From assembly GCF_020253525.1 (NCBI RefSeq), contig NZ_JADCBK010000130.1:1-36508 (forward strand): DNA of 36,508 nt, in the 5' to 3' direction. Shown piece by piece: positions 5,282 through 21,289 of the stretch (its first letter is position 1; every line of letters begins with the position of its first letter). The DNA comes from Aquidulcibacter sp. GTDB lineage: Bacteria > Pseudomonadota > Alphaproteobacteria > Caulobacterales > Aquidulcibacteraceae. The translations under genes were made by a program, and so were the position numbers. The notes below the pieces were generated by a model, which saw nothing but the letters and a program-made list of their open reading frames with translations, searched no databases and was not told the origin of the DNA.

Positions 5282-5821
5282 TTACATCGGCAAATCGCGC
5301 CATTGCCCCGGTGCAAGATCGCCCAAGGACCACGCGCCAATTTTCACGCGCACCAGACGCAGGGTGGGATGGCCAATCGCCGCCGTCATACGGCGCACCT
5401 GCCGATTACGCCCTTCGCGGATGGTAAGACGGATCCAGCTGTCAGGAATGCTTTTGCGGACGCGGATGGGTGGATTGCGCGGCCATAGACCTGGATCCTC
5501 AAGGCGCGCAACGTCTGCAGGCCGGGTTAGCCCATCATTCAACATCACCCCTTTGGTAAGGCTTGCCAAAGCTTCGTCTGACGGGATGCCCTCGACCTGC
5601 ACATAATAGGTCTTGGGCAGTTTGAACGCCGGATCAGCTATCCGTGCCTGCAGCTTGCCATCATCGGTCAAAAGTAAGAGGCCCTCACTATCGCGGTCGA
5701 GGCGGCCGGCGGGATAGACGCGCGGCACGTCCATAAAATCCGCCAAAGTCTGCCGCCCCTCCCCACCCGAAAACTGGCACAAGACGTCATAGGGTTTGTT
5801 GAACAGGATAAGGCGCGGCAT
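5282..5821 (-). CDS. rluE: RluE-type 23S rRNA pseudouridine synthase (RsuA family)
   Basis: Isomerises a uridine in 23S rRNA; E. coli RluE modifies U2457. The protein starts directly with the catalytic fold and lacks an S4 domain, as RluE does. Residues 37-47 ([12 protein letters not shown]) hold the catalytic Asp42 in GRLD, followed by LLLLTDDG. A second motif, GRNRQVRRM, lies in the C-terminal part. I chose ATG 5821 (179 residues), because the longer reading begins at TTG 5842 and adds seven residues that look unlike the family. A TATAAT box sits six bases upstream of this ATG. The downstream protease gene is 85 bp away. The RluE assignment within the family is likely but not proven. Confidence 0.88.
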
Positions 5822-5827
5822 AGCGGG

Positions 5828-5833
5828 ATTATA
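5828..5833 (-). promoter_or_regulatory. TATAAT box immediately upstream of the rluE ATG
   Basis: A perfect TATAAT ends six bases before ATG 5821, which would place the transcription start at or beside the A of the start codon (a leaderless message). No good -35 lies 16-18 bp upstream, so it may be weak or chance. Confidence 0.3.
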
Positions 5834-5898
5834 GGGTGGCAATACGCCGAAAGGATAGTGTCATGCGCTTATATGAATATCCTATTCCCAAGCCCCCA

Positions 5899-6525
5899 CT
5901 AAGCGGGTCTTCCCAAGGCCACCCACTCCTCCATCGCACTGATGAATTCAATAGTTGGATAGGATCTGATGTCTTCCTCTGAAGAGCCTCGTTGAAGCTC
6001 TCGCTCATAATACCATTGCTGAAAAGATGCATAATCCGCAATTATTCGAGCGGGGCCTTTTGGAGTGGCACGGGCGGCATGCACCATCCAATTTCGAACC
6101 TGCCTTATGGTCGTATCATAATTGCCGTCATGGGCTAAGACGTCCCAACCCGCAATGTCAGACAAGGCCTTCTTTGTATCATATGCCGTATGTTCGAGAA
6201 CGAGGATTGCCTTTGTTTTCAGGGGGCCATCGCCAAACCGACGCGCACCAAAATCCATGCCGAGTTCGAACGGCATGTTCATTCTGAAATACGCCTCAGG
6301 ATCACTAGTTTTGCATTTGCTTAGATCATGAATACCGAACTTAGAGCTGTTGATAAGCGTGGTTATTCGTTCCAGCCTCGGCGTTGAATGATCTGCGGTC
6401 TCGGGGGCAAGACGGGGATAGAAGCCAAGATCTACAACGCAGAACGCGATGGCGTGAAGGAGAGGAGAGAATTCTTGATCAAACGCACAATTAATGCAAA
6501 CGGATGTTTCAAAAGTTGCCGCCAT
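5899..6525 (-). CDS. Uncharacterised protein, possible TIR/nucleoside-deoxyribosyltransferase-like fold
   Basis: No named function is recognised. The 208 residues start with a beta strand and acidic turn (residues 9-18, VCINCAFDQE), then a helix and a second strand (DLGFYPRLA). A GIHDLS strand follows at 64-69, then NMPFELGMDFGAR at 83-95. The FELG glutamate (E87) sits where deoxyribosyltransferases and some TIR-like NADases carry a catalytic Glu, hence the inferred fold. The C-terminal third is helical and hydrophilic. It lies 2 bp downstream of the DUF2188 gene and is surely co-expressed with it. Base composition is unlike the neighbours: 6001-6060 has 26 G+C of 60 and 6301-6360 has 22 of 60, against 41 of 60 at 5041-5100. 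This suggests transfer. A defence or toxin role is inference only. Confidence 0.75.
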   Translation of the reverse strand: MAATFETSVCINCAFDQEFSPLLHAIAFCVVDLGFYPRLAPETADHSTPRLERITTLINSSKFGIHDLSKCKTSDPEAYFRMNMPFELGMDFGARRFGDGPLKTKAILVLEHTAYDTKKALSDIAGWDVLAHDGNYDTTIRQVRNWMVHAARATPKGPARIIADYASFQQWYYERELQRGSSEEDIRSYPTIEFISAMEEWVALGRPA

Positions 6526-6527
6526 GG

Positions 6528-6752
6528 TTAGCCTTTAGGCGGAACTGGATCATTACCGTAGGAATTCCGCTCTCGAATGCGCCCATCCTTGCCATGAATA
6601 TACAATTCGGACCTAAAGGACTTGGCCTTTGCCCTAGCGACTTTTATCGCTTCGTCTTGGGTTGAATGCGTGCTCGATGCCCGCGTCGATCCAGATCGAA
6701 TGACGCGCCATCCATCTTTGCCCGGCACCACATGCTGACTTTTCGTGGACAT
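6528..6752 (-). CDS. DUF2188 domain protein
   Basis: A 74-residue protein that is almost entirely one DUF2188 domain. It opens with QHVVPGKDGWRVIRSGSTRAS, continues with a helix rich in Ala/Lys (DEAIKVARAKAK), then ELYIHGKDGRIRERNSYG and a typical NDPVPPKG ending. The molecular function of DUF2188 is unknown to me. The start ATG 6752 has an excellent ribosome binding site (GGAGGTG, five bases upstream). It is the first gene of a two-gene unit with the possible TIR-like gene. Upstream, 6753-6864 contains a small GATT/AATC inverted repeat (6779-6791) but no clear -35/-10 pair. Confidence 0.85.
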   Translation of the reverse strand: MSTKSQHVVPGKDGWRVIRSGSTRASSTHSTQDEAIKVARAKAKSFRSELYIHGKDGRIRERNSYGNDPVPPKG

Positions 6753-6864
6753 ATCGCCACCTCCGTACCAAAGGTAACTCGATTAGTTAAATCCGTCGAG
6801 CGAGTCTTGCAATAGATGGATTTTGGTGGCCACAGCCAATGCACCGCGCCACTATCCAAAAACA

Positions 6865-6894
6865 AAAAAGCCGCCCCAAACAGGGCGGCTTTTT
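6865..6894. terminator. Intrinsic, probably bidirectional terminator after rplQ
   Basis: AAAAAGCCGCCC (6865-6876) pairs perfectly with GGGCGGCTTTTT (6883-6894) around a CAAACA loop. The seven GC pairs are flanked by A and T tracts, so it can end transcription both ways. Its natural job is ending the ribosomal operon 22 bp past the rplQ stop. It also shields the DUF2188 unit from read-through. Confidence 0.92.
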
Positions 6895-6916: not shown

Positions 6917-7321
6917 TTATTCGTCGCCAGCAACAGGGCCAGAGTCTTTGCCCTTGGCGCTGACGTCGCGGTCAACAAACTCAATCACGGCGACGGCGGC
7001 ATTGTCACCATGGCGGAAGCCCGCCTTCATGATGCGCAAATAACCACCTGCGCGACCGGCATAGCGTGGGCCGATGACGTCAAACAGCTTCTTAGTTTGG
7101 GTCTCGTCGCGCATGCGCGAAGCAACCAAACGACGCGAAGCCAAGTCACCCTTTTTAGCCAAAGTGACCAAACGCTCCAATACAGGGCGCAATTCCTTTG
7201 CCTTTGGCAAGGTGGTCACGATTTGCTCGTGCTTCACCAAGCTGGCAGCCATGTTGGCGAACATGGCGGTGCGGTGTTCATGTGTCCGGTTCAGTTTCCG
7301 GTGTCCGTGACCGTGGCGCAT
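6917..7321 (-). CDS. rplQ: 50S ribosomal protein L17
   Basis: A 134-residue L17, a large-subunit protein. It opens with [12 protein letters not shown] and [11 protein letters not shown]-like sequence ([25 protein letters not shown]), the family signature, and ends in a short acidic/Gly tail beyond the E. coli length. It is the last gene of the alpha segment, 44 bp after rpoA, with a GGAGA-type ribosome binding site, and is followed by the terminator at 6865-6894. Confidence 0.98.
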
Positions 7322-21014: not shown

Positions 21015-21289
21015 ATTTACCCTCGCGAAGCGGTCATCCAAACGATAGGACCGCATGTCAAACATCGAACGAAGCCCGCTACGACGCCATTTTGACCGGC
21101 GACGCATCAGGCTGCGCAAACTTAATTTTAGCTGGAAAAGCCATCTGACGGGGTCGAAGAAGCAAAGACGCGTATGACCGCGCCATCAGAGGCGACATAC
21201 CCTTTTCGGCGGTATGAACCCTGCGCTTTTATCGTCCCGCGTCTGGAGAACATAAGCGTTCTCCACAGCCGGTCCAAGCAAGAGCGGCG
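21015..21289 (-). promoter_or_regulatory. Structured leader of the S10 operon
   Basis: About 270 bases before rpsJ contain no gene but several perfect hairpins. GGAGAAC/GTTCTCC (21245-21264) has a 7-bp stem and six-base loop. CATACC/GGTATG (21196-21216) has a 6-bp stem and nine-base loop. A CGCC/GGCG pair lies at 21181-21194. None has a following T tract on the minus strand. The layout suits an r-protein-binding leader such as the L4-controlled one of gammaproteobacteria, but similarity to it is not evident. Confidence 0.45.

Follow-up and report, generated by a model that had tools for sequence, protein, structure and literature searches.

In the 36,508-nucleotide stretch of Aquidulcibacter sp. 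DNA analysed here (contig NZ_JADCBK010000130.1 of assembly GCF_020253525.1; the window, for short), a gene for a 74-residue DUF2188 protein is followed after 2 bp by a gene for a 208-residue protein of no named family, and we consider it fairly probable that this pair is a mobile immune module made of a TIR enzyme that processes nicotinamide adenine dinucleotide (NAD) and a small co-encoded regulator. The pair is probably a phage-defence system. The arrangement, in which the smaller gene is transcribed first, had been described in an initial annotation made from the letters alone, and the open reading frames (ORFs) and family scans bear it out. The 74-residue protein matches PF09954 (E 2e-24, 85.9 bits; Pfam gathering cut-off 22 bits) and aligns end to end with PDC-S16, a PADLOC model of a phage-defence candidate (residues 1-74 on model positions 1-75, E 4.2e-34), and the 208-residue protein has a best Pfam match of only E 0.048 and no match in NCBIfam or PADLOC. 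Across three species, the ratio of nonsynonymous to synonymous substitution rates (dN/dS) is 0.06-0.12 for the TIR-like gene and 0.05-0.06 for the DUF2188 gene, indicating purifying selection, and both are therefore real genes. The pair shows a synonymous divergence of 0.98-1.96 (near saturation in places), which exceeds the values for rplQ (0.16-0.86) and, mostly, those for rsuA (0.86-1.03).

To place the larger protein, we collected its relatives. Three overlapping sets of genomes contained them (11 of 61 close genomes, 30 of 299 from the order and 8 of 398 from the phylum), and they also occur on 16 plasmid records and in three viral contigs. The resulting profile, A1, holds 35 aligned sequences from the 38 loci first fetched; outside it are L008, where the TIR-like copy is cut by the contig end, L037, a fragment with stops, and L038, which lies on the same contig as L003, while a second match in genome G537 had no locus and L021, a copy of L020, is not in alignment A3. 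Compared by hhalign, A1 matched 18 CAP12/Pycsar TIR domains with a probability of 93.9% (E 1.5e-7) and 19 TIR_2 domains with 0.4%; the positive control, CAP12 against TIR_2, reached 96.0%, 100 column-shuffled permutations of A1 did not exceed 4.2%, and 0.6% was obtained with the alignment reversed. The DUF2188 branch alone (12 sequences) gives only 38.9% against CAP12, and the other 23 sequences give 94.6%. N12, R50, H66, M84, E87, G89, S122, D123 and D128 are invariant in the 35 relatives. The active site of SfSTING, as given in an excerpt of PMC9402430, consists of R78, N80 and the catalytic E84 together with D110 from the dimer mate, and the sequence printed there shows RDNVVFE and PTDLDG; the counterparts in our family are R81 (34/35), N83 (34/35), E87 (35/35) and D123 (35/35). 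The initial annotation was right to place E87 of the FELG motif like the catalytic glutamate of TIR enzymes, as it falls on SfSTING E84, but the acidic first-strand loop that it had also stressed is not what carries the case, which rests instead on the R-x-N-x-x-x-E and S-D-x-x-G motifs. Judged by sequence homology and active site, the protein belongs with the CAP12/Pycsar TIRs, as a distant relative and not as a member of PF10137: it is unlisted in the search with that family at E ≤ 10 (gathering cut-off 24.7 bits), and the PF10137 search of the window's genome gave no match. Two further TIR_2 domain matches are present in this genome (G000:C79:24541-24855 and G000:C57:25585-25878). TIRs of this class turn into active NADases via oligomerisation, according to part of a preprint (PMC13142454), and the window enzyme most likely cleaves NAD.

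The AlphaFold2 model of the 208-residue protein (predicted local distance difference test score, pLDDT, 90) has the fold common to TIR and nucleoside deoxyribosyltransferase (NDT) enzymes, in agreement with the suggestion that it belongs to one or the other, and comparison of folds leaves the two tied. The protein might be an N-glycosidase that acts on nucleosides or nucleotides, like deoxyribosyltransferases, DNPH1 and MilB, working in nucleotide salvage or damage repair and not in immunity, but we regard this as unlikely. The profiles uphold the TIR half of the suggestion and not the NDT half: against the 93.9% for the CAP12 TIRs, ten NDT sequences (PF05014) taken from 18 matches gave 3.1% with A1 and 0.2% with alignment A2. 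Patchy presence and immune neighbours, described below, also fit poorly with a salvage enzyme.

The pair lies between rplQ and an rsuA-like gene, and comparison of nine genomes of the genus identifies this gap as an insertion spot. It is occupied by the pair in three genomes (G000, G002, G003), so that the location is not invariant, and is free of genes in four, in which the matched gene ends are 89, 89, 159 and 213 bp apart (G001, G005, G008 and G006, respectively). The gap of G007 contains an oppositely oriented 279-aa gene (L099:1427-2263) whose product matches the Imm11 domain weakly (E 4.2e-7). That of G004 (L098:525-2745) contains a defence-type AAA ATPase operon, which encodes a 455-aa ATPase (AAA_15 E 1.2e-19; PADLOC NsnB E 2.2e-42) and a 148-aa protein of no family; beside it, the start of rsuA is partly repeated, over 31 residues with 90% identity. 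In a tree built from three flanking proteins, the pair-bearing genomes lie scattered and require three changes. The unit is a compact, horizontally moving two-gene module; its insertion beside the ribosomal cluster had been proposed in the initial annotation. Of the two signals annotated around it, the ribosome binding site stands (GGAGGT, 6 nt before the start), and the upstream terminator is present but belongs to rplQ, because it is retained in relatives without the pair. The pair is also poorer in guanine and cytosine (GC) than the whole window, as had been noted (0.500 vs 0.571). Equally low values occur in 13 of 1427 overlapping 854-bp segments, values below 0.515 occur only at starts 5651-6251 and 21101-21276, and GC at third codon positions is 0.48 and 0.52 for the pair vs 0.63-0.66 for rplQ, rsuA, degP and rpoA. 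However, low GC alone is weak evidence because the adjoining ribosomal DNA is also at 0.52-0.55 in several 500-bp segments, and insertion is better supported by the empty sites of relatives.

The relatives of the enzyme, too, come with small genes. DUF2188 lies directly upstream of the TIR-like gene in 12 of the 35 family members, which form one clade (support 100/99); a single change on the tree accounts for the pairing, a number as low as which was reached in 0 of 500 shuffles. L008 likewise has DUF2188 upstream, and the pairing recurs on a Sphingobium plasmid (L169) and in the viral contigs L172 and L174. With these three added, the 15 DUF2188-paired members still form one clade (98/93) in a second tree that leaves out the long branches L011, L035 and L036. 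A divergent DUF2188 also precedes the gene in L173, the sister of this clade (E 3.3e-9, scored over the ORFs of that locus). We also scanned for same-strand ORFs of 50-135 codons that end within -30 to +25 of the start, using genes of 150-260 aa as controls, and found one upstream of 34 of 35 family members vs 33 of 207 control genes (Fisher p 1e-21, which is too small since relatives are not independent). Among the 23 members without DUF2188, 22 pass the scan, and L019, whose ORF runs on upstream, is counted as a miss. All 23 of these upstream ORFs encode more K+R than D+E, and a model of them built without the close kin of the locus in question ranked the correct ORF first in 14 loci (E 1.9e-5 to 0.086, with a near tie in L032) and failed in 9; these 14 look mutually related. 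Profile comparison of the non-DUF2188 proteins with DUF2188 gave no kinship (0.1-0.3%). A TGRFV-like motif occurs in the small basic proteins directly upstream of non-DUF2188 TIR-like genes (L006, L016, L024-L030 and others). The closest relatives of the window enzyme thus keep a DUF2188 partner and more distant ones carry a different small partner. In the C-terminal region of the TIR-like protein, it is the DUF2188 branch alone that keeps W171, G180, E183, M198 and P207 without exception, and it is possible that these residues form a docking surface. On a Sinorhizobium sojae plasmid (L170:1984-3560), DUF2188 is intact, the TIR-like gene is in separated pieces, and transposase genes lie on both sides.

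A small gene that comes first and is tightly linked to, or overlaps, the larger one would also suit a classical toxin-antitoxin system, in which DUF2188 is the antitoxin and the TIR-like protein an NAD-depleting toxin that serves DNA stabilisation or dormancy, with any phage defence incidental. The frequency of small upstream ORFs speaks for this explanation, as does the interrupted TIR-like gene beside an intact DUF2188 on plasmid L170, and we hold it to be possible but somewhat doubtful, since DUF2188, unlike a dedicated antitoxin, also occurs alone or in front of a CBASS (cyclic-oligonucleotide-based antiphage signalling system) cyclase and other genes. We counted 34 DUF2188 matches, spread over 29 of the 200 phylum genomes searched. 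Of the 15 strongest (at least 68 bits), four precede a TIR-like gene, six stand beside a pair of XRE and M78 peptidase genes, and five do neither. Of the six, five are followed by the gene for a protein of 386-478 aa, which in one case runs into a contig end, and one is followed by a CBASS cyclase gene. L159, L160, L162, L163 and L164 share a four-gene cassette of capP-like, capH-like and divergent DUF2188 genes and the gene for the 386-478-aa protein, which has 395 aa in L160 and is cut by the contig end in L163; neither of the two that were checked (386 and 478 aa) belongs to a Pfam or PADLOC family. PADLOC identified the M78 protein as capP in L073, L075 and L166 and the XRE protein as capH in L160 and L166. 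It is possible that these genes are instead an ImmR/ImmA-type phage pair, as several of the loci hold recombinase-like genes, named by eye. At L166:6375-10540, DUF2188 is the first gene of a CBASS operon with all its parts (cyclase E 1.9e-172, E2 8.2e-53, SAVED-HNH 4e-148), and the capHP-like genes are divergent. CapH and CapP together govern neighbouring immune operons upon DNA damage, according to an excerpt of PMC13373217.

The most direct tie of the pair to a known antiphage system is the context of L174:389-6370, a viral contig with 27% GC. The order starts with DUF4062, ThsA_Macro (2e-55) and ThsB_TIR (4.8e-17); 863 bp beyond ThsB_TIR, a DUF2188 gene (6.5e-16) overlaps the TIR-like gene by 4 bp, and ThsA_Macro (1.5e-46) and TIR_2 (1.8e-6) follow at 56 and 31 bp. 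Part of PMC11204291 assigns the sensing of phage in Thoeris to the TIR proteins ThsB and the effector role to the TM-macro proteins ThsA. Given these roles and the L174 neighbours, the TIR-like protein might be a ThsB-like signal maker whose effector is encoded elsewhere, making the window pair an incomplete Thoeris-type system; we assign this a low probability, because the window ORFs include neither ThsA nor any other effector adjoining the pair. In L172:3774-6947, the DUF2188/TIR-like pair is near a phage portal gene (E 2.7e-71) on a 22-kb viral contig, and the surroundings are perhaps a gene-transfer-agent cluster.

Several results weigh against an immune module. The chromosomal pairs that we viewed stand alone between ordinary genes (aspS-, parE-, era/recO- and hemN-like, by eye), and most pairs are not in recognisable defence islands, a point that the initial annotation had asked to have checked. 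ThsA_Macro (PF20016) was found in 0 of 13 paired genomes, a search in which control genomes were equally silent, and PF18185 behaved likewise. Titles and abstract openings of the literature that mentions DUF2188 include none on phage defence, and PDC-S16 is not named in the literature searched. A DUF2188 protein of Bacillus subtilis is a general-stress protein. This protein and the ordinary chromosomal surroundings would agree with a gene pair that acts in stress or regulation outside immunity and is mobile by chance. We nevertheless judge this improbable in view of the invariant active-site set, the Imm11 gene and the defence-type ATPase operon that occupy the same insertion spot in other genomes, and the Thoeris and CBASS contexts.

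For the immune module, we propose the following mechanism. The second gene would encode a small CAP12/Pycsar-type TIR enzyme, most likely cleaving NAD+, with E87 as the catalytic glutamate, R81 and N83 contributed by the same chain and D123 by the dimer mate, as in SfSTING. DUF2188 would be made in step with the enzyme and most likely gates it, either holding it inactive or assembling it until infection by a phage, or damage to DNA, changes the complex. The active enzyme would then deplete NAD+, resulting in abortive infection; with a ThsA-type effector alongside, it may instead make an ADP-ribose signal. We further suggest, tentatively, that the family represents a new type of immune system, in which a small TIR family has an obligate upstream partner that was exchanged once (a basic TGRFV-type protein on one branch, DUF2188 on the other), and DUF2188 is a portable gate or sensor for several immune enzymes that are not related to one another: TIR, CBASS cyclase, Thoeris clusters and the 386-478-aa protein encoded behind capHP-like genes. 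For the question of how lone TIR enzymes are silenced and activated, the family gives a minimal case, an enzyme of ~208 residues with a 74-residue protein, as well as a natural experiment, in that branches of the same enzyme family have different partners. The widespread domain DUF2188, whose function is not known, gains a testable role in immune operons.

Table 1 Features of the DUF2188/TIR-like locus and its flanks in the window.
Feature	Position	Strand	Basis and remarks
TIR-like enzyme gene, 208 aa	5899..6525	-	ORF; E87 codon at 6265-6267
DUF2188 gene, 74 aa	6528..6752	-	ORF; partner directly upstream of the TIR-like gene
Shine-Dalgarno-like GGAGGT	6759..6764	-	Read from sequence; 6 nt 5' of the DUF2188 start codon
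rplQ intrinsic terminator, GC stem and T run	6864..6889	-	Upstream edge of the inserted DNA
DNA absent from empty-gap relatives, approximate extent	5840..6857	.	Six-genome junction alignment; edges accurate to ~20 bp
rsuA-like pseudouridine synthase gene (name by eye)	5282..5821	-	ORF, conserved neighbour; downstream flank of the insertion spot
rplQ	6917..7321	-	ORF; upstream flank of the insertion spot; present in 9/10 genomes searched

Among known systems, PADLOC PDC-S16 corresponds to the DUF2188 protein over the whole model, but it is a one-protein candidate model that does not include the TIR-like partner. The window enzyme differs from SPARTA TIR-APAZ and AbTir in having no Argonaute or APAZ part, with a sequence identity of 10-16%, and from the nucleoside deoxyribosyltransferase, DNPH1 and MilB enzymes (PF05014 and kin) by the low profile probability given above. 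It shares with the CAP12/Pycsar TIR effectors (PF10137; SfSTING, PycTIR) the TIR-core profile, the R-x-N-x-x-x-E and S/T-D-x-x-G motifs and the invariant catalytic glutamate, but it falls below the Pfam threshold and, at ~208 aa, has no fused STING, SAVED or cyclic-nucleotide domain. Its regulation, if any, would come from a separate small protein, and no cyclase gene adjoins the pair, the surrounding ORFs being degP, rsuA, rplQ and rpoA by eye. The likeness to Thoeris (ThsB TIR and ThsA effector) lies in the L174 pair, which is inside a ThsA_Macro/ThsB_TIR/TIR_2 cluster, whereas the window pair has no adjoining ThsA and its TIR is outside the ThsB_TIR family. TIR effectors and Thoeris are the closest known kinds, and what is new compared with them is the separate, exchangeable small partner.
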